From positions 408,501-472,500 of the forward strand of contig NC_016624.1 in assembly GCF_000283655.1 (NCBI RefSeq): a stretch of DNA of 64,000 nt, written 5' to 3'. The notes below the pieces were generated by a model. That model was not told where the DNA came from. It saw only the letters and a list, made by a program, of their open reading frames with translations, and searched no databases. Shown piece after piece: positions 26,561-36,116 of the stretch (the first letter of the stretch is position 1; every line of letters begins with the position of its first letter). The DNA comes from Azospirillum lipoferum 4B (GTDB lineage Bacteria; Pseudomonadota; Alphaproteobacteria; Azospirillales; Azospirillaceae). A program made the translations under genes and the position numbers.

Positions 26561-27490
26561 TCAGGCGATGCGCGCCATCACCCGCTCGTTGATCGGCGGG
26601 CGCGAGGGGTAGAGGATCAGCCCCTCGGCCGCTTCTTCGACGCGGGCGTCGGGATAGGCGGCCATCGCGTATTTCAGATTCGGGATGAACTTGGTCTTGA
26701 ACTGGCGGACCAGGGCGTAACCGGCGCCGAACTGGCCGTGCAGCGCCGCCCAGGTGATTGGGGTCGGCTTTTCCAGCGAATGCAGGCGGTAGGCGAGCCA
26801 GATATAGACGTCGAGAGCCATCGACTTGCCGCTGATCGCCTTCAGCGCCTCTTCCGCCACCGGAACCGGATGTTCGCGCAGGGCCTTGAAGAAGCTGTCG
26901 CTGAGCCGCACCGTCTCGGTGAACAGGGTTCCCTGGCGGTCGTCGGGCCGGCGCAGCTGGATGGCGTCGGCGACGATCGATTCCTTGCTCTGCCGCCGGC
27001 CGCCGTCGGCGTCGGTGAAGAAGGTGAGATGGCAGGCGGAAAGGCGCGCAGCCTGATCCTCCACATCGCGATAGGCCTTGCCGCAGATCGGAATATCCAT
27101 CCGCTTCAGCCAGTCATGCATGGAGCCGCCGAGTTCCACCTCCGGATTGCCGGTCTGGATGGCGCGGGTCTGGAGATAGAGCAGGATCATCCGCGCCCGG
27201 CTGCCATAGGGCACGCCGATTCGGCGGGTGACGCCGTTGCGGTCTTCGATCACGCCGGGCTGGATCACCAACTTGACCTTGTGGCCCGGCCGTTCCCAAT
27301 GCTGGTCGTCGGGAAGCTGGCGGTGGGGCAGCGCCGTCTGGCAGAATCCGGCATAGGTGATGCCGAGCTTGCCGTTCTCCGCGGCCTGGACCGCGGCGGC
27401 GATGTCGATCAGCGGCCGTTCCTCGTCCGAAACGAGGGCCAGTGCGCCGTCGCGCCCATGTGTCTCGATCAAACGATGAATGCTGCCCAT
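26561..27490 (-). CDS. repA: Plasmid replication initiator RepA (RPA family)
   Basis: Initiator of 309 residues resembling the plasmid-encoded RepA proteins of alphaproteobacterial megaplasmids. Recognisable stretches are GITYAGFCQTALPHRQLPDD, VPYGSRARMILLYLQTRAI and MALDVYIWLAYRLHSLEKP, the last two typical of this family's winged-helix region. The start at 27490 has GGGAGAG upstream and begins MGSIHRLIETHG; the frame stays open upstream through an iteron, which is unlikely to be translated. Iterons lie before its start and after its stop, so it probably binds them both to initiate replication and to control itself. ParA/ParB genes follow 2.2 kb away. Confidence 0.88.
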   Translation of the reverse strand: MGSIHRLIETHGRDGALALVSDEERPLIDIAAAVQAAENGKLGITYAGFCQTALPHRQLPDDQHWERPGHKVKLVIQPGVIEDRNGVTRRIGVPYGSRARMILLYLQTRAIQTGNPEVELGGSMHDWLKRMDIPICGKAYRDVEDQAARLSACHLTFFTDADGGRRQSKESIVADAIQLRRPDDRQGTLFTETVRLSDSFFKALREHPVPVAEEALKAISGKSMALDVYIWLAYRLHSLEKPTPITWAALHGQFGAGYALVRQFKTKFIPNLKYAMAAYPDARVEEAAEGLILYPSRPPINERVMARIA

Positions 27491-27598
27491 GCCGCTCTCC
27501 CGTTCCTGGTCACCTGCTTCTGGCCTCCATGACCGTCCTGTGACCGCCGGATGACCGAACCTGCCAGATACAACACCCCGGATCGCGCCGAAGGCAAT

Positions 27599-27858
27599 TT
27601 GAACCTTGGTGACGCAGGCTAATTGGAAGCTATTTGGAACCAACTATTAGATTCGTCACCAAGGTTCAGGGGATAACTCCGAGTCGCGTCACCACAGTTC
27701 AAGGATGGCGTCACCAGAGTTCATGGGGAAAACCGGGGGGCCTGTGGACGAATCGCGGTGCCGGGAGCGCTGCGGGTTTGAACCTTGGTGACGCCCGGGC
27801 AGGCGAGTCGGGGTGAATCGGGCGGGCGCGGGTCGCGGCAGGCGTCACCAAAGTTCAA
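27599..27858. repeat. Iteron group B (upstream of repA)
   Basis: Six iterons: reversed at 27599-27613 and 27778-27792, forward at 27655-27668, 27688-27702, 27710-27723 and 27844-27858. Two forward copies are exactly 22 bp apart (27688 and 27710). The group lies 109-368 bp upstream of the repA start and probably overlaps its promoter. Confidence 0.88.
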
Positions 27859-28046
27859 GGATTCCAGCGGCTAAGTGAGGCGCGTTAGCGGGGCCTTTGC
27901 TGCCGGCCATTGGATGGTTGGCTGTTCGCCCATCATCGGCGTGGTGTTTGAATTCAATGGCTTACCTGTCATCCCCGCGGAGGCGCTACGGGATGCACAG
28001 ATCTCACGGGCCATTAAGGCACTGCAATCATGGCACTTATTCGGCT

Positions 28047-28283
28047 GTCATTCCCGCGAAGGCGCATAGGCGCTAACTTACTGGTCGAATTGTTGTCGAA
28101 GCCAAGCCCATCCCTTATCGACCGTCATCCCCGCGAAAGCGGGGATCCAGGGTTTTCCAAGCAGAATCAATGGGCAAGCCTGGATCCCCGCCTTCGCGGG
28201 GATGACGCTGAAAGAAGTGCCGACCCCTTGGGAAATGGGCAAAGTCCTCAAAGTTAGCGCCTATGCGCCTTCGCGGGAATGAC
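28047..28283. repeat. Nested palindromic repeat inserted in the iteron array
   Basis: The outer arms are a perfect 33-bp inverted repeat (28047-28079 and 28251-28283, beginning GTCATTCCCGCGAAGGCG). Inside lies a second inverted repeat of 29-bp arms with one mismatch (28123-28151 and 28179-28207, beginning CGTCATCCCCGCG), the core also found in the elements at 5221 and 59929. A stray half copy (TGTCATCCCCGCGGAGGCG) is at about 27968. It separates iteron groups B and C and encodes nothing obvious. Confidence 0.8.
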
Positions 28284-28350
28284 GCACAGAGGAGCGGGTG
28301 TGGGCTTTCTGGGTTTCGCGGCCGTTCATCGTCCCTTCCCACCTCAGGGC

Positions 28351-28542
28351 GTCACCAAAGTTCAAACGGCCGGTCGAGTCGATTCCGGACCCTCGGCGTC
28401 ACCAAAGTTCAAAGCCGCACGACCCCAGCGTCACCAAAGTTCAGGAGTCATGCCGAGTCGGTCCGGATGGGAGCGTCACCAAAGTTCAAACTCCGGAGGC
28501 TTGCCACCCCATCCTAGACCATCGGGGCGTCACCAAGGTTCA
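28351..28542. repeat. Iteron group C (distal array)
   Basis: Five forward iterons at 28351-28365, 28398-28412, 28430-28443, 28475-28489 and 28529-28542, with start-to-start spacing of 47, 32, 45 and 54 bp. The first four share the AAAG variant; the last is AAGG. The array ends 73 bp before the CDF transporter start codon. Confidence 0.88.
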
Positions 28543-28615
28543 GGTGCTCCGGCTCCGCGGAACCGGGCGGCAGCAGCGGAGTTGTTTGCCAACGTGGCTG
28601 AATTGGCGGGGGACC

Positions 28616-29569
28616 ATGGCGCAGGATGCGATGACCGGTTCGGTGGGAGGATCGGAGACGGACGCCGGCAAGGTGGTGATCGCGGCCATCGCGGCCAATC
28701 TGGCGGTCACCGTCACCAAATTCGCGGCGGCGTTCCTGACCGGCAGTTCGTCGATGCTGAGCGAGGCGGTGCATTCGCTGGTCGACAGCGGGAACGAGGC
28801 GCTGATGCTGGTCGGGCTGAAGCGGTCGAGGAAGCCGCCCGACGACAGCCACCCCTTCGGCTACGCGCGCGAGCTGTATTTCTGGACCTTCGTCGTGGCG
28901 CTGGTGATCTTCGCCGGCGGCGCCGTGGTGTCGATCTATGAAGGGGTGGAGAAGATCCTGCACCCCCAGCCGGTCGAATCGCCCTGGATCAACTTCGTCG
29001 TGCTGGGCATCGCCGTGGTGATTGAGGGGGTCAGCTGGCTGGTGGCGCTGCACGCCTTCAATGCCCGGCGCGGCGACGCCGGCGTGTTCGAGACCGTCCA
29101 CGCCAGCAAGGACCCCACCATCTTCATGGTGCTGTTCGAGGACAGTGCCGCCCTGGTCGGCCTGATCATCGCCGCCGCCTGCCTGTCCGCCGACCTGCTG
29201 CTGGACCAGCCGGTGTTCGACGGCATCGGCTCGGTGCTGATCGGGCTGGTGCTGGCGGCCACCGCCGGCTTCCTCGCCTATGAGACGAAAAGCCTGCTGA
29301 TCGGCGAATCGGCCCGTCCCGATCTGGTGCGCGGGGTGCGCGCCCTGCTGCGGGAGGAGCCCGCCATCGAGCGCGTCAACGAGGTGCTGACCACTCATCT
29401 CGGCCCCGAGGTGGTGATCGTCAATCTCAGCCTCGACCTGCGGGACGAGGTGAGCGCGGGCGAGGTGGAGAAGGCCCTTGCCCGCATCGACCGGCAGGTG
29501 AAGGAGCGCTTTCCGGAGATAAGCCGCGTCTTCACCGAATTGCGGGCGGGCGGGCCGGTTCCGGGGTGA
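28616..29569 (+). CDS. Cation diffusion facilitator (CDF) family transporter
   Basis: Inner-membrane divalent cation/proton antiporter of 317 residues. About five to six helices can be drawn; metal-site-like residues occur in MLSEAVHSLVDSGNEALML (helix 2) and in the helix pair around FEDSAALVGLIIAAACL. The C-terminal cytoplasmic domain begins near residue 220 with RPDLVRGVRALLREEPAIERV. The GGGGGA site precedes the ATG at 28616. The gene is squeezed between the iterons and parA. Zn, Fe, Co or Mn could be exported; many members of this subgroup are uncharacterised. Confidence 0.84.
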   Translation: MAQDAMTGSVGGSETDAGKVVIAAIAANLAVTVTKFAAAFLTGSSSMLSEAVHSLVDSGNEALMLVGLKRSRKPPDDSHPFGYARELYFWTFVVALVIFAGGAVVSIYEGVEKILHPQPVESPWINFVVLGIAVVIEGVSWLVALHAFNARRGDAGVFETVHASKDPTIFMVLFEDSAALVGLIIAAACLSADLLLDQPVFDGIGSVLIGLVLAATAGFLAYETKSLLIGESARPDLVRGVRALLREEPAIERVNEVLTTHLGPEVVIVNLSLDLRDEVSAGEVEKALARIDRQVKERFPEISRVFTELRAGGPVPG

Positions 29570-29597
29570 TGGTTGTGGCAACTCGCCGCGCTCTCCA

Positions 29598-29626
29598 TTG
29601 ACAAAGTTCCGGCAACTTGCTCAGAC
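29598..29626 (+). promoter_or_regulatory. Putative parAB promoter with embedded palindrome
   Basis: A -35 like TTGACA (29598-29603) is followed by AAGTT-CCGGC-AACTT (29604-29618), a palindrome placed in the spacer, then a weak -10 candidate near 29621. ParA proteins with an N-terminal DNA-binding domain commonly repress their own promoter, so this palindrome could be the operator or a parS-like site. It is 57 bp upstream of parA. Confidence 0.5.
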
Positions 29627-29674
29627 TCCGGCGGCCCGGATGGCCGTCCATATCGGGGCCGGAGTTGAGGGGGA

Positions 29675-30697
29675 ATGACGGGAATGCTGTCGATTGGGGG
29701 CGACGAGATGCGCCAGCTGCGCGAGCGTCGCGGCGAGAACCAGACGCAGTTCGCCGAATGGCTGAACGCGCAGCTTGGCCGCAGCTATACCAAGGCACGG
29801 ATCAGCCGCTGGGAAAGCGGGGCGGAGCGGATCCCGCAGCAGTTGGTCGATTTCCTGACCCGCCACAAGGCGGACGAGCGCCCCCGCGCCGCGACATATC
29901 TGGCGGTCGCCAACCAGAAGGGCGGCGTCGGCAAGACCGCGACCGCCGTCAACCTCGCCTATGCCCTGACCGAAGGGGGCGCGCGGGTCCTGCTGATCGA
30001 CTGCGATTCGCAGAGCAACGCCACCGTCCATGTCGGCATCGGCAACGCCGCCATCGTCGCGCTGGAGCAGCAGCGCAAGACACTCTATTACGTGCTGCGG
30101 TCGGAAGAGCCGCTGACCTCCGTCATCATGCCGACGGCGGAACGCGGGCTGGATCTGGCGCCGGCCGGGCTGTCGCTTGCCGACGCCGACGTTGAACTGG
30201 CGGCGGATTCCACCGGCGGGCTGATCCTGCGGGAGAAGCTGGACGAGGTGCGCCACTCCTATGATTTCGTGGTGATGGACTGCGCGCCGAACCTGGGTCT
30301 GGTGACCGCCAACGCCTTGTCGGCGGCGGAGCTGGTGGTGGTGCCGGTGCAGACGGAGGCGCTGGCCCTGCTGGGCGTCAAGCGGCTGATCGACACCATC
30401 GGCCGCATCCGCCGCCGGGTGAATCCGACCCTGCGCATCGCCGGCATCATCCCGACCATGTACAACGACCGGCTGACCCAGGACCGCGCCACGCTGCAGG
30501 AGCTGCACGAATCCTACGCCGGTCAGGTGCCGGTCTTCGACCCCATCCCGCGCGCCACCGTCTATGGCAAGGCGGCCGCCGCCGGCATGATCACGCTGGC
30601 GGGCGATCCCAAGGCGCCGGGGGCCGAGACCTTCCGCGAGGTGGCGCGCCAGATCCGCGCCTATGCCCAGAACCGGGAGTTGCCGCATGTCGCGTAA
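29675..30697 (+). CDS. parA: ParA partition ATPase with N-terminal XRE-type HTH
   Basis: Plasmid partition ATPase of 340 residues. Residues about 10-65 form an XRE-like helix-turn-helix (MRQLRERRGENQTQFAEWL ... ARISRWESGAERIP), then the deviant Walker A NQKGGVGKT (about residues 84-92), Walker A' region LLIDCDSQSNATVHVGIG and Walker B VVMDCAPNLGLV follow. It would bind nucleoid DNA with ATP and move ParB-parS complexes. Its last 11 bases overlap parB. The HTH domain suggests autoregulation. The GAGGGGGA site is very close to the ATG. Confidence 0.92.
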   Translation: MTGMLSIGGDEMRQLRERRGENQTQFAEWLNAQLGRSYTKARISRWESGAERIPQQLVDFLTRHKADERPRAATYLAVANQKGGVGKTATAVNLAYALTEGGARVLLIDCDSQSNATVHVGIGNAAIVALEQQRKTLYYVLRSEEPLTSVIMPTAERGLDLAPAGLSLADADVELAADSTGGLILREKLDEVRHSYDFVVMDCAPNLGLVTANALSAAELVVVPVQTEALALLGVKRLIDTIGRIRRRVNPTLRIAGIIPTMYNDRLTQDRATLQELHESYAGQVPVFDPIPRATVYGKAAAAGMITLAGDPKAPGAETFREVARQIRAYAQNRELPHVA

Positions 30698-31622
30698 GTT
30701 CGAACGCAAGACCCGCGAGCTTCTGGGCGGCGCCGGCGAGCCGGGCGGCGTGGCGGGGGGCGGCATGACGGGCGGGCTGACGGTGGGCAGCGACCGGCTG
30801 TTCGGCACCTCGGCCGGTTTCCCGCATGTGGTGGAGCTGGACCTCGACCGTGTCCACCGCAACCCCGACCAGCCGCGCCGCCATTTCGACGAGGCGGAGC
30901 TGCGCGGCCTGGCATCCTCCATCGAGCGGCACGGGCTGCAGAACCCGATCCTGGTCCGCCCGCTGCCCCAGGGCGAATATCTGCTGATCGGCGGCGAGCG
31001 CCGGGTGCGTGCACACGAGATGCTGGGCCGCAAGACGGTCTTCGCCATCCTGACCTCCGGCGACCCGGACGAGATCGGGCTGATCGACAATGTCCAGCGC
31101 GTCGATTTGAACGCGGTGGAGTATGCGGCGGCGCTGGCCCGGCTGATCGACAAGCACGGCTACACCCATGACGAGCTGGCCGCCGTGGTCGGGCGCGACC
31201 GCACCGACGTGACCAAGCTGCTGGCGATCATGAGCCTGCCGGCGGAGATGCGGGAGGAGTATGCGACGGCCTTCGCCCATGTCTCGCGCTCCGTCATGAT
31301 CGAGATCGCCGCCGCCCCGGCGGAGCTCCGCGCCGAGCTGTGGGAGCGCGCCAAGGAGGGGGCCAGCGTCAAGGCGGTGCGGCAGGCCAAGCGGGACCAT
31401 GCCCAAGGCGCCGCTGCAGAAGCCACTCCGCCGGAGCCCGGCCCGAAGGAGGCGATGCGCTCCTTGCAGGCCAGCGTGAAGCGGATCATGCGCGACGTCG
31501 CCGTGGTGCGCGAGCAGCGCCGCCACCTCGACCCGGACAACCGCGAGCGGCTGATGCGGCTGCGGGCGGAGATCGATGCGATCCTGGAGGAGGTGGATGA
31601 CGGGGTGGAAAGCGGGGCCTGA
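30687..31622 (+). CDS. parB: ParB centromere-binding partition protein
   Basis: ParB/RepB/Spo0J family protein of 311 residues. The N-terminal ParBc (CTPase) fold is visible as VHRNPDQPRRHFDEAELRGLASSIERHG and GGERRVRAHEMLG (the arginine motif), followed by the KorB-like HTH region YTHDELAAVVGRDRTDVTKLLAIMSLP and a C-terminal region with predicted dimerisation helices. The ATG at 30687 overlaps the end of parA by 11 bp, so the two are translationally coupled. Its stop is only 4 bp from the stop of the convergent flavoprotein gene. Confidence 0.92.
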   Translation: MSRKFERKTRELLGGAGEPGGVAGGGMTGGLTVGSDRLFGTSAGFPHVVELDLDRVHRNPDQPRRHFDEAELRGLASSIERHGLQNPILVRPLPQGEYLLIGGERRVRAHEMLGRKTVFAILTSGDPDEIGLIDNVQRVDLNAVEYAAALARLIDKHGYTHDELAAVVGRDRTDVTKLLAIMSLPAEMREEYATAFAHVSRSVMIEIAAAPAELRAELWERAKEGASVKAVRQAKRDHAQGAAAEATPPEPGPKEAMRSLQASVKRIMRDVAVVREQRRHLDPDNRERLMRLRAEIDAILEEVDDGVESGA

Positions 31623-31626
31623 CCGC

Positions 31627-32742
31627 TCAGGCCGCCAGCCGGCGGCTCCAGAAGGGGCGGTCCCGCCAGCGGCGCTCCAGCCCGTACCAGGCGTGCAGAT
31701 GGGCGCGGTAGGCGTCGCGGATCGGCGTCAGGCCGGCGGCATAACCGGAGAGTGCGTTCGCATCGCCGGACAGATGGCGGTCGGCGGCCTCCGCCGCGGC
31801 AAGGCCGGTGTAGAGCGCGTTGAAGATGCCCTGCGACGACAGCGGGTCGAAGCCCAGGGCGGCGTCGCCGACCGCCAGCCAGCCCTCGCCCGAGGCGGGT
31901 GACAGCGTGCTGCTGTGGGCGGCGCAGAATCCGCCTCTCCCCTCCCCCTGCCCTTCCGGCGTGAAGCCGCAGGCGCGCAACGACTCCGAAAGCACGGGAC
32001 AGCCGGGCAGCCGGCGCAGCAGCGATGCGGCGTCGCGGGCATCGGCAGCGGCGGGCAGGTCGGCGTCGGTGTGGAAGGCGACGACCCGGCGGCCCTCGGG
32101 CAGCGGGGCGCTGTACCACCAGCCGTCCGGCTCCGCCTCGATCCAGGTCAGGCCGGACTGGCGGCCGGGGGCGTCCCTGCCATGGATCCAGCCGCAGACC
32201 AGCCGGTCCGACACCGTCCGCCGGGCGCCGAAGCGCTTGGCCAGCGGCGAGCCGCGCCCGCCGGCATCGACCAGCAGGCGGGCACGCACGGGAAGGCGGC
32301 GGCCGGCGGTTTCCACCTCCAGCAGCCAGCCCTCCCCTGCCCTGTCCACCGACAAGGGCAGGGCCGGGACCAGCAGGGCGGCGCCGCGCGACACTGCGAC
32401 CCGGCGCAGCCAGCCGTCGAAGCGGCCACGGTCGAGGTGCCAGCCCGGCCCGTCGAGGTCGCGCAGATTGTCGGCCTCGACCGGCAGCGGACCGCCCCAG
32501 ACCGACCGGCCGCCATGGCAGGGGGAATGGCCTTCCGCCAGGAAAGCCTCCCACAATCCCATGTCGGTCAGCAGGCGGCGGGCGGCCGGGGCCAGCGATT
32601 CGCCGATGCGGACGGCGGGGCCGTCCCGCCGGTCCAGCACCAGCACCCGGTGCAGCGGCGCGAGGTTGAGGGCGAAGGCGGCGCCGGCGGGACCTGCTCC
32701 CACCACAACCGCATCCGCCTCGATCACGCCTCCCTGGATCAC
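31627..32742 (-). CDS. LodB-like FAD-dependent oxidoreductase, partner of the LodA-like fusion
   Basis: Flavoprotein of 371 residues with the N-terminal dinucleotide motif GAGPAG (residues 15-20), RIGESLAPAARRLLTDMGLW typical of halogenase/LodB-like flavoproteins, and the second FAD motif GDAALGFDPLSSQGI near residue 300. Its GTG start overlaps the stop of the 999-residue gene by 4 bp (GTGA), so the two are translationally coupled. In LodA systems the LodB flavoprotein is needed to build the cysteine tryptophylquinone cofactor in the partner; that role is inferred here from family and position. A tryptophan-halogenase-like activity is a less likely alternative. Confidence 0.82.
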   Translation of the reverse strand: MIQGGVIEADAVVVGAGPAGAAFALNLAPLHRVLVLDRRDGPAVRIGESLAPAARRLLTDMGLWEAFLAEGHSPCHGGRSVWGGPLPVEADNLRDLDGPGWHLDRGRFDGWLRRVAVSRGAALLVPALPLSVDRAGEGWLLEVETAGRRLPVRARLLVDAGGRGSPLAKRFGARRTVSDRLVCGWIHGRDAPGRQSGLTWIEAEPDGWWYSAPLPEGRRVVAFHTDADLPAAADARDAASLLRRLPGCPVLSESLRACGFTPEGQGEGRGGFCAAHSSTLSPASGEGWLAVGDAALGFDPLSSQGIFNALYTGLAAAEAADRHLSGDANALSGYAAGLTPIRDAYRAHLHAWYGLERRWRDRPFWSRRLAA

Positions 32743-35738
32743 CGCAGCCCGCGCGGGAAGCGGCGGACCTTGTCGATCCGGCTGAGGTCGACCGGCTGGG
32801 TCGCCCGCAGCCCGCCACCGCCGCCCGACGGGGCCGGCGCCTTGGTGGACAGGGTGCGGTGGGCGGTGCGGACCGCCTTGGTGTCCACCGTGTCGTCCAC
32901 GTCGGGGATGGGGATGTGCTGGTCCTCCACCTCGATCAGCGGCGGGAACAGCTTGGCGCCTTCCGGATCGGTCGGGCCGGGATTGACCTCCACCACGCCG
33001 AGATGGTCGAAGTGATGGATCATGTTGTTGATCTGGTCGGTGTAGCTGGTGGTGCCCAGCGGCGCCACCCAGGCGGCGCGGTTGGCGAAGGCGGCCAGAC
33101 GCACCTGGGTCGGCTGGGCGGCGTCCATCACGATCCGGTAGTTCTCGCGGGTCAGCACCTCGTTCGGCACGCGGGCCGGCCAGAAGGTCGGGACGTTGGG
33201 GTCATAGCCGGGATCGTAGCCGGAGCGGCAGCTGCCGGTGTCGGTCTGCCACGGCACCGCCATCCAGCGGGTGATGCCGCCGGGAAGCTGGCCATAGAGC
33301 GGGCCGTTGGGGATGGTCACCGTGTCGCTGGACAGGATGGCGCCCATGCCCGGCTCCACCCAGCCCTTGGGCGCATGGGCGAAACGGAAGGGCTCCATAT
33401 ACATGGTGGAGGCGCGGACCGGCCAGGTCATCTCGCAGCCGGGATGGAAGGCGTCGGCCAGGCAGAAGTCCAGCGCGGCGCGGGTCAGCACGTCGCCCTG
33501 CTGGTCTAGCGGCACCTGATCGAACTCGGTGTAGACCGGGACCTTGCCCCAGTCGTCGTCGAAATCGCCGGCGACCCACTGGTCGAGGAATTCCAGCTGG
33601 GTCTGGGTCAGCGAGGTGTATTGGCGCGGCGTCTGGGCGGGCGGGATGCTCATCGCGTCGCCATAGACCCAGGGCCAGGGCATCGGCGACCAGCTGTCGA
33701 CATCGTCATGGCGGAAGGAGTTCTTCAGCACCCGCCGGGTTTCCTGGTTGGCGAGGCTGCGGTCGTTCAGCCGCGCGATCCAGTCCGGCTTGGTGAAGTC
33801 GTTGGCGGAGTTCCAGCCGAACCCGGCGGCGAACCCGGCATTGACCCATTGCAGCCCGGTCATCCGCTCGAACACCGGATAGATGTCGTGGGTGAAGGAG
33901 GGACGGGTGGGCTTCGGCAGCGTGCCGGCCTGGATCGCCATGTCGCGCATCAGGTCCCACATGGTGCGGACGGACTTGCGCTGCGGCCCGTAATTCGGCG
34001 GCGCCACGACGATCCAGGCGGGGGTGACCGGCAGTTCCATGCCGTTCAGCCTGACCACCGCATCGACCGGCCCGTCCGAGGTGTCGTCGTGCCAGCCCTC
34101 GTTGTTGCCGAAGGTGATCGCCTTGGTGCCGTTGTAGGAGGAGGAGAAGCCGCGACCGCCGGTGACCAGCAGGCGGTGGTCGCCCTCCTCGCACCACATG
34201 CGGCCGAGATAGACCGGCTCGCCCTGGTGCATGAACTTGCCGGCGACCAGCTTGCGGCTCTGCTTGCCTTGGCCGGCGTGGATCTTGTGCTCGCCGGCAT
34301 CCAGCACCAGCGCCTTGCGGTCGGTAACCGTCGGGTTGCGCAGCGTCGACGGATCGGCGGAGGCCGCTTCGGGAATGTCGAGCGCCAGCTGGAAGCTGTA
34401 CCAGGCCGATTTCTGGTTGGAGAGATGGACCTTCCAGGTGATGTCGGCGCCGCTGTCGGCGGCGGTCAGCTCGCGGACGATGCGGCCCATGGCGTTGACG
34501 CCATAGATGCGGAAGCGCGCGGCCTGCGGCAGAAGCCGGCCCTTGGCGTCACGATAGGGGTTCTGCGCCGGATCGTCGCCGGCCATCAGCGGCTTCGGAT
34601 TGGGCACCTCGGGACCGACGACATAGCCCTCCGGCGCGTTGCCGATGCGGGCGATGCCGATGGGCGGGTAGATCACCGCCTTGACGATGCAGTCGTCCTT
34701 CGGCAGCGGCGGCGCCTGGGTGCGCGGCACCGTCGGCTGTTGCAGCGGCTGGCCGTTGGCCTGATGGCGGACATCGGCGCCGTGGTTGTAGACCACCTTG
34801 CGCACCGCGGCGATGCTGCCCTGCGGCGCCTGCTCCACCGGCGTGCGCCAGATGTTGAAGGCCAGCTCCTGCCCATAGTCGCCCTGGCCGCGGGCGCAGA
34901 CATCCTGCTTCGGCAGGATCAGCGTCGCCACCGGCTGGTAGGGGTATTGGTCGGTCGGCCATTTCTCCGTCGCCTTGTCCAGCGGATAGCCGGCGCTCTT
35001 GGGAACCACCTGCACCATGAAGGTGAAGCGGTATTCGTTGTCCAGCAGCCGGTTGGCGAGGTCGGTGGCGAGATAGTTCTTGTCGTCGGTCGGCACGTTG
35101 ACCGCCGGATGCCCCGGCGGCGGCGCTTCCGGCACCAGCGAGTATTTGGCGTAGCGATCCGGGCCGAAGGCGAAGGGCAGGATCGCCCAATATTGGGTGG
35201 TCAGAACGCTGCCGTCCACCTGCGCCGACATGGCGTTCAGGATGCCGTCGGTCTTCGGGTGCGTCTTGAGATAGCCGGGATAATCCTTCAGGACCGTGCC
35301 GGCATAGGTGAACTCGCACATCTCCTCGGCGTTATCGACGAAGAAGACGGGAAAGTTCTGCATGATGAAGTCAGCGACGTCGCCCGTCTCGCCCAGCGCG
35401 TTGACGCCATCGACGCCCCAGACCTTCAACCCGATGCCGAGCGTCGATCCCAGATCCGGAGAGGTCGGGCCGGTGTCGCTGGAAAAGCGCATCCAGGCCG
35501 GCAGCTCGTCCCTGGCGAAGACGCCGACGCGCAGGGAGTCCGGCCGGTTCGGGTCCATCACCAGCCGGCCATGGGCGGCGCCGTGCAGCTTGCGGAACAC
35601 CGCGCGTTCCGCCGGCGTCTGGCCCAGCGCGATGCGCTTCATCTGGCCCATGGCGATGAACATCTCGTCCAGCCGCTGGGTAGCGTTGGTCGCGCAGTCG
35701 AAGCACGGGGGAATCGGGGAGGAATCTTTGGCCGTCAT
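32739..35738 (-). CDS. Catalase-like domain fused to LodA-type CTQ amino-acid oxidase
   Basis: Protein of 999 residues made of two parts. Residues about 20-330 resemble catalase-like (y4iL-type) heme proteins: KLHGAAHGRL with candidate distal His52/His56, WMRFSSDTG, GIGLKVWGVDG, DFIMQNFPVFFVDNAEEM and VATLILPKQDV. Residues about 350-930 match LodA-family oxidases: GIARIGNAPEGY, NEGWHDDTSDG, and both cofactor residues, Cys759 (ALDFCLADAF) and Trp830 (RWMAVPWQTD), equivalent to LodA Cys516 and Trp581. Such enzymes deaminate amino acids and release H2O2. No signal peptide is visible. AGGAGA lies upstream of the ATG. The fusion could detoxify or use its own peroxide, but heme binding needs testing because the usual proximal Tyr motif is not obvious. 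The LodB-like gene follows directly. Confidence 0.85.
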   Translation of the reverse strand: MTAKDSSPIPPCFDCATNATQRLDEMFIAMGQMKRIALGQTPAERAVFRKLHGAAHGRLVMDPNRPDSLRVGVFARDELPAWMRFSSDTGPTSPDLGSTLGIGLKVWGVDGVNALGETGDVADFIMQNFPVFFVDNAEEMCEFTYAGTVLKDYPGYLKTHPKTDGILNAMSAQVDGSVLTTQYWAILPFAFGPDRYAKYSLVPEAPPPGHPAVNVPTDDKNYLATDLANRLLDNEYRFTFMVQVVPKSAGYPLDKATEKWPTDQYPYQPVATLILPKQDVCARGQGDYGQELAFNIWRTPVEQAPQGSIAAVRKVVYNHGADVRHQANGQPLQQPTVPRTQAPPLPKDDCIVKAVIYPPIGIARIGNAPEGYVVGPEVPNPKPLMAGDDPAQNPYRDAKGRLLPQAARFRIYGVNAMGRIVRELTAADSGADITWKVHLSNQKSAWYSFQLALDIPEAASADPSTLRNPTVTDRKALVLDAGEHKIHAGQGKQSRKLVAGKFMHQGEPVYLGRMWCEEGDHRLLVTGGRGFSSSYNGTKAITFGNNEGWHDDTSDGPVDAVVRLNGMELPVTPAWIVVAPPNYGPQRKSVRTMWDLMRDMAIQAGTLPKPTRPSFTHDIYPVFERMTGLQWVNAGFAAGFGWNSANDFTKPDWIARLNDRSLANQETRRVLKNSFRHDDVDSWSPMPWPWVYGDAMSIPPAQTPRQYTSLTQTQLEFLDQWVAGDFDDDWGKVPVYTEFDQVPLDQQGDVLTRAALDFCLADAFHPGCEMTWPVRASTMYMEPFRFAHAPKGWVEPGMGAILSSDTVTIPNGPLYGQLPGGITRWMAVPWQTDTGSCRSGYDPGYDPNVPTFWPARVPNEVLTRENYRIVMDAAQPTQVRLAAFANRAAWVAPLGTTSYTDQINNMIHHFDHLGVVEVNPGPTDPEGAKLFPPLIEVEDQHIPIPDVDDTVDTKAVRTAHRTLSTKAPAPSGGGGGLRATQPVDLSRIDKVRRFPRGLR

Positions 35739-36116
35739 ACGCTCCGTCTCCTGAATCGTCCGGCGGGGGTGCCGGGAAGGGTGGATACGCGGATAAAAAA
35801 GTTGTTTTGATGAATGAAATTTCCCGTTACGTGAGTCGTGCTTACGCGAGCACTCCAGGGGTTTCCACTGGAAATAATCGGTGGTGCATACATTTTTACC
35901 GTATCGGAGAGTGCGTGGTGATCAGCACCGCTTCGGTTGAGTGACTCTGTCGATACTCGTTTCATTGATCACGAGGCGCCGATGTGGGATGTCCCACAGT
36001 CATGCGTTGCGTGGGTGGGGCTCCCTCTGCCCTGCTCTCCCCGGAGGGAGAGGGGATTCCGCCTTCCCCGCGCCGGTGTATGATGGGCGCGCCATTCCGC
36101 AGGGGGCCGACCGAGA
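35739..36116. other. Divergent promoter region between LodA-like fusion and matB
   Basis: 378 bp, AT-richer around 35790-35970. It contains an inverted repeat GTGCT-6 nt-AGCAC (35838-35853) and the recurrent palindrome at 35983-35998. A short GC-rich hairpin-like stretch (about 36025-36060) precedes matB. No gene seen. Confidence 0.5.
35983..35998. repeat. Recurrent palindrome TGTGGGATGTCCCACA, copy 2
   Basis: Sixteen-base near-perfect palindrome (central AT instead of AC/GT symmetry), 119 bp upstream of matB and 245 bp upstream of the LodA-like gene in their shared promoter region. It is the copy best placed for a regulatory role. Confidence 0.65.

Follow-up and report, generated by a model that had tools for sequence, protein, structure and literature searches.

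A catalase-fold domain with a changed distal site is fused to a LodA/GoxA-type oxidase in Azospirillum lipoferum 4B and may use the peroxide its partner would make

The window analyzed here is a 64,000-nucleotide stretch of DNA from Azospirillum lipoferum 4B (NC_016624.1, positions 408,501 to 472,500), and the gene of interest encodes a single chain in which a catalase-fold domain precedes a LodA/GoxA-type quinoprotein oxidase (Table 1). The initial annotation had proposed this fusion, and it held: the C-terminal part passed the Pfam cut-offs for LodA_N (239.7 bits, cut-off 26.3) and LodA_C (137.4 bits, cut-off 25), and the N-terminal part has a catalase fold in the predicted AlphaFold model and its fold matches. 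The N-terminal domain scored 16.1 bits against the Pfam Catalase family and did not reach the curated cut-off of 25; the fused protein also failed the NCBIfam equivalog models for GoxA (388.6 bits, cut-off 750) and LodA (142.6 bits, cut-off 600). Predicted domain folds, conserved residues and the linkage of the two halves were computed directly. A chance open reading frame (ORF) was ruled out, as 9 of the 25 genomes in the nearest genome's genus carry the fusion, as a nearly full-length counterpart at 86-98% identity. A 729-aa open frame (33621-35810, plus strand) lies antisense to the fused gene and was taken as an artefact of high GC content.

Table 1. Positions of the genes, domains and residues discussed, numbered from the first letter of the window.
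Feature	Position	Strand	Basis or remark
Fused gene	32739..35738	-	999 aa; ORF calls, Pfam, AlphaFold model, fold matches
Catalase-fold domain, residues 37-338 (N-terminal)	34725..35630	-	
LodA/GoxA-type oxidase domain, residues 352-943 (C-terminal)	32910..34685	-	
LodB/GoxB-like flavoprotein maturase, 371 aa	31627..32742	-	Curated NCBIfam models
Cys837, predicted cofactor cysteine (LodA Cys516)	33228..33230	-	Alignment; Cys in 65/65 fused ORFs
Trp853, predicted cofactor tryptophan (LodA Trp581)	33180..33182	-	Alignment; Trp in 65/65 fused ORFs
Phe48, at the place of catalase distal His75	35595..35597	-	HMMER profile alignment and two MAFFT modes
Asp88, at the place of catalase Val116	35475..35477	-	Alignment; gap placement nearby uncertain
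Gln127, at the place of catalase distal Asn148; Asn128 adjoins	35358..35360	-	Alignment
Tyr317, predicted proximal heme ligand; Arg313 and Arg324 near	34788..34790	-	Tyr in 65/65 fused ORFs
RepA_C	26561-27643		
ParA (with helix-turn-helix)	at 29675		
ParB	at 30663		

As expected for oxidases of the LodA/GoxA type, a lodB-like gene adjoins the fused gene, and its GTG start overlaps the oxidase stop by 4 bases. The best curated models for its product were GoxB (E 2.6e-71, 240.5 bits) and LodB (E 9e-57, 192.8 bits), both under the equivalog cut-offs of 400. LodA and GoxA are established producers of hydrogen peroxide (H2O2), and we infer that the oxidase half of the fused protein likewise forms the cysteine tryptophylquinone (CTQ) cofactor and produces H2O2. 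The cofactor residues had been placed at Cys759 and Trp830; this pair was ruled out, since the LodA CTQ residues Cys516 and Trp581 align with Cys837 and Trp853 instead. Conservation was counted in 65 fused ORFs, namely 60 loci from a genome-contig scan plus L001, L003, L007, L009 and L055; other copies and the disrupted loci L111, L112 and L131 were omitted, and the coordinates show L003 and L070 to be a single gene. Cys759 and Cys768 are present in all 65, yet neither is the CTQ cysteine. Asp833 is also kept in all 65 and corresponds to Asp678 of GoxA (available text of PMC7876137). The fused protein differs from GoxA, the glycine oxidase of Pseudoalteromonas luteoviolacea (6byw), whose Tyr766/His767 stretch has no counterpart in it, and from LodA, the lysine epsilon-oxidase of Marinomonas mediterranea (2ymw, 3weu), which has a Cys where the fused protein has His765. 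Unlike the fused protein, neither enzyme has a catalase-like domain.

The initial annotation had regarded the fusion as unrecorded among characterized enzymes. It is indeed uncharacterized, but it is not a new architecture, having been on record without a function since 2015. In Table 3 of the survey by Campillo-Brocal et al. (PMC4417212), 21 of 28 rows carry pfam00199, among them Azospirillum lipoferum 4B AZOLI_p50417 (999 aa) and Azospirillum sp. B510 AZL_e04100 (1004 aa), and none of the fusions is characterized in the available part of that paper. The same source places every pfam00199 fusion in LodA-like group III, whose N-terminal pfam00199/cd08152 architecture and size are those of the fused protein, and reports a lodB-like gene nearby in all genomes but one. 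The available part of the survey mentions neither a consistent change of the distal pocket nor an adjacent-gene form, and a search of the open-licence PubMed Central literature found no characterized catalase-LodA fusion and no account of its distal-site change.

The proximal side of the catalase-fold domain retains what catalase uses to hold heme, and from these residues the domain probably binds heme. The residue aligned with the proximal tyrosine is Tyr317, which with Arg313 and Arg324 is invariant, and Arg45 and Arg84 were found in 72 of 72 LodA-linked rows; the proximal Tyr with its Arg and the heme-propionate arginines of catalase are thereby all kept. The 72 rows comprise 63 fused proteins (the window protein, L055, L131 and the 60 scan loci), 5 split pairs, 2 loci at contig ends, one locus with a catalase-like gene near lodA (L061) and one beside a broken lodA (L056), and they include near-identical relatives and are not independent. 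When true catalases from Azospirillum relatives were added (19 usable of 20 loci, one having given no usable ORF), Tyr317 met their proximal Tyr in 18/19 rows in MAFFT local-pair mode and in 11/19 in the other mode, which failed to align the proximal region; the match rests on local-pair mode and on the profile alignment to 3e4w. A domain that holds no heme, with the catalase fold serving only as a structural or oligomerization module, would fit the loss of the distal catalytic histidine, but the five invariant residues are hard to explain without heme, and we consider such a scaffold very improbable.

The distal side is a different matter. In catalase, numbered here by human chain coordinates in the HMMER alignment, His75 and Asn148 form what we take to be the catalytic pair. 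An 'essential His' and a 'catalytic Asn' are named for catalase in the available text of PMC9687031. Column 48 is Phe in 72/72 linked rows, whereas the 39 free-standing relatives have H (36), N (2) or Q (1). Both HMMER and MAFFT matched the catalase block R-V-V-H75-A-K-G to R45-A-V-F48-R-K-L without gaps, and a structural alignment concurs on this register, pairing human catalase residue 68 with model residue 41. Column 127 is Gln in 72/72 linked rows and I, A, F, V or L in 36/39 free-standing ones, with catalase G-N148-N149-T-P matched to M-Q127-N128-F-P (HMMER, MAFFT). Column 88 is Asp in 72/72 linked and 0/39 free-standing rows, the latter having G (13), A (11), T (9), P (3) or N (3); here MAFFT matched catalase R-F-S-T-V116 to R-F-S-S-D88, and HMMER set a gap just after R-F-S. 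Ser87 is kept in all 72 linked rows. The true catalases have His, Asn and Val at columns 48, 127 and 88 in 18/19 rows; one of the 19 disagreed at several columns, perhaps through a wrongly picked frame.

Candidate distal histidines had been suggested, none of them by name; Phe48 stands at the catalytic place. The conserved histidine, His52 (72/72 linked and 36/39 free-standing rows), lies four residues past it. A reading of His52 and Asn128 as the distal pair was rejected on the profile register, in which Arg45-x-x-Phe48 matches Arg72-x-x-His75; MAFFT with the true catalases and the 72-row count upheld this register. With Phe48, Gln127 and Asp88 fixed in every linked row while Tyr317, Arg313 and the propionate arginines are kept, the domain appears to bind heme through a tyrosine ligand and to have a remodelled distal pocket. 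Such a heme would most likely not dismute peroxide as catalase does, because Phe48 takes the place of the distal His, Gln127 that of Asn148, and the acidic Asp88 that of Val116.

A kept proximal side, a newly fixed distal side and a linked peroxide source together suggest that the peroxide serves a reaction and is not just destroyed. We therefore tentatively favor, at somewhat below an even chance, a bifunctional enzyme in which the CTQ oxidase makes H2O2 and the neighboring heme domain uses it on a second substrate. LodB/GoxB-type maturation would turn Cys837 and Trp853 into CTQ; the mature domain would oxidatively deaminate a primary amine, such as an amino acid, and its re-oxidation by O2 would yield H2O2. 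The N-terminal domain, its heme held by Tyr317, would consume this neighboring H2O2 and oxidize a second substrate in a peroxidase- or peroxygenase-like manner. This substrate may be the product of the oxidase itself, and Asp88 and His52 are candidates for the acid-base. The more specific version, a tyrosinate-heme peroxygenase or peroxidase found in five phyla, with His/Asn swapped for Phe/Gln, Asp88 as acid-base and H2O2 delivered in cis, is somewhat doubtful. Heme binding and the second reaction are, like CTQ formation and peroxide production, inferred.

Several points weigh against a peroxide-using heme domain. The distal-site argument rests on the alignment register, and an indel nearby may put Asp88 off by up to two positions. 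Asn128, beside Gln127, could still be the distal Asn, and loss of Asn148 is not special to the linked group, since the free-standing relatives mostly have I, A, F, V or L there. Conserved neighbors, gathered by greedy gene picking at the 70 loci of the scan and at 10 further loci, point to no second substrate. In addition, the examined flanks of the unfused oxidase relatives L057 (59% identity), L145 (54%) and L135/L136 (about 52%) hold no catalase-like ORF; because such relatives exist, the oxidase can work without a catalase-like domain. These relatives also bear on a role in cofactor biogenesis, in which the heme domain would aid CTQ formation, for example at the initial hydroxylation of the Trp, much as MauG, a di-heme protein, acts for tryptophan tryptophylquinone. 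MauG is a precedent, and the first hydroxylation in LodA and GoxA is thought to be autocatalytic in the available text of PMC7876137; however, the unfused relatives have a lodB-like gene and no catalase-like domain found nearby, and the fusions too have a lodB-like gene, so that we regard this role as scarcely probable.

The initial annotation had offered two functions, self-protection and a further reaction that draws on the peroxide. The second would fit our results better, and the first was weakened. For self-protection, the heme domain would destroy the oxidase's H2O2, as a catalase or scavenging peroxidase whose distal site is unusual. A catalase fold is tied to a probable peroxide producer across five phyla. 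By a simple hydropathy scan the N terminus of the window protein has no strongly hydrophobic segment, so the release of peroxide may be intracellular, and C. imbricata allene oxide synthase (cAOS) has catalase activity (PMC5617202, available text). Plain catalase self-protection is nevertheless doubtful because the distal catalytic site, including its His, is changed in all 72 linked domains. Furthermore, all 5 fusion-bearing genomes among the 21 genomes searched also have a true catalase, as a strong match. In 9/10 Acinetobacter loci (L099, L102, L103, L105, L109, L112, L120, L122 and L132) a separate catalase-like gene follows the fused gene and lodB, at a distance of 1.2-1.9 kb from the oxidase gene; the column of the distal His was read in 8 of these 9 (all but L112), and all 8 retain the His. 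Overall, self-protection appears unlikely. A non-catalytic heme, acting as a sensor or as an allosteric or structural element and modulating the oxidase through bound peroxide, NO, CO or O2 or as a reporter of heme supply, would explain why the heme-holding side is invariant and the catalytic side altered. Phe48, Ser87, Asp88 and Gln127 are, however, each fixed in 72/72 rows, which suggests chemistry over an empty pocket; although this is not decisive, we find a non-catalytic role distinctly unlikely.

For a peroxide-using enzyme, a precedent by analogy is the coral allene oxide synthase-lipoxygenase (1u5u, 3dy5), in which a catalase-fold heme domain is likewise N-terminal to an enzyme that makes its peroxide substrate. 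The coral domain acts on the hydroperoxide from its fused lipoxygenase, a case of a catalase fold fed by the enzyme joined to it; it differs in its partner and in retaining the distal His67/Asn137 (PMC5617202, available text). The nearest solved sequence to the N-terminal domain is 3e4w (E 8.3e-15), a 33-kDa catalase-related protein of M. avium paratuberculosis that is of similar size, but it is a separate 320-residue chain with a His where the fused protein has Phe48; the literature search yielded no paper on it. Residues 30-336 are 27.8% identical to a 'catalase' of pNGR234a, presumably y4iL, the namesake of the y4iL-like (cd08152) catalase-fold heme proteins. RebD/VioB was considered as an analogy for heme with an amino-acid oxidase and left aside. 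Heme peroxygenases are limited by their need for a controlled H2O2 supply. If the proposal is true, this would be a natural, self-fuelled enzyme, making its own peroxide next to the tyrosine-ligated heme that consumes it; such an enzyme would hold broad interest and would show the rebuilding of a catalase scaffold while tied to a peroxide source. The residue changes make a concrete question of whether the heme half lacks catalase activity and what substrate it oxidizes.

The same fusion was found in other genomes. The scan gave 70 loci, of which 60 were one-ORF fusions, 5 adjacent-gene pairs, 3 disrupted and 2 cut by contig ends, in Pseudomonadota (41), Bacteroidota (14), Actinomycetota (7), Myxococcota (5) and Cyanobacteriota (2), with one unplaced. 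Both scan patterns were drawn from the catalase-like domain, which favors linked loci, and these counts do not give the fraction of LodA proteins overall that are fusions. The linkage of the two domains persists when they are unfused: the adjacent pairs (four in Chitinophagaceae, one in Mycobacterium) have gaps of -4 to 26 bases. In an even draw from the phylum, a match of nearly full length was seen in 2/398 genomes, the search centre being one of the two, with mostly two candidates scored per genome. A lodB-like gene is next on the same strand in 74 of the 75 loci with room and opposite in one, in a survey of 79 loci of which 4 were cut by contig ends and 11 unfused. Beyond the fused gene and lodB, the most widespread neighbor families occurred at 8 loci in 6 groups and at 4 loci in 4 groups; the example of the former overlaps the fused gene antisense and is an artefact.

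In a tree of the catalase-like domain, one branch (SH-like approximate likelihood ratio test 99, length 1.29) parts 39 LodA-linked from 26 free-standing sequences; the tree kept 65/111 rows, came from a quick search and has several long branches. This separation of linked from free-standing domains is a point of difference from the group III survey (PMC4417212). The oxidase-domain tree (57/85 rows after near-copy removal, with some duplicate or disrupted loci removed by hand and L061 counted as unlinked) placed linked and some unlinked proteins in one broad part and required 6 changes of linkage state. Distances in the two domains were correlated (Spearman 0.62, against a largest value of 0.22 in 1000 permutations; 39 rows), for which shared ancestry alone suffices. 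Omega values of 0.19-0.21 and 0.16-0.28 for the two domains (three pairs) indicate purifying selection on both. The simplest account would be one old association with later fusion, some separation and some loss, moved between phyla largely as a unit.

Three loci show other arrangements. At L061:3066-8608 (genome G374) the order is lodA, lodB, catalase-like, and the catalase-like product is a separate 635-aa protein with a linked-type domain plus further sequence. On a Sinorhizobium medicae plasmid (L056:5974-8932), an intact catalase-like ORF is followed by lodA in three open pieces, which looks broken. On Azospirillum brasilense p3 (L059:4692-9112), an unfused lodA lies between a ferritin-like (PF12902) gene and a lodB-matching gene annotated as tryptophan 7-halogenase, and a gene for a di-heme oxidoreductase is close by. 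Here a LodA protein has a different iron/heme partner.

The operon of the fused gene and the lodB-like gene adjoins plasmid replication and partition genes for RepA_C, ParA and ParB (26561-31622). Given these genes, and since the nearest plasmid records to the window are from Azospirillum, the window is probably plasmid DNA.
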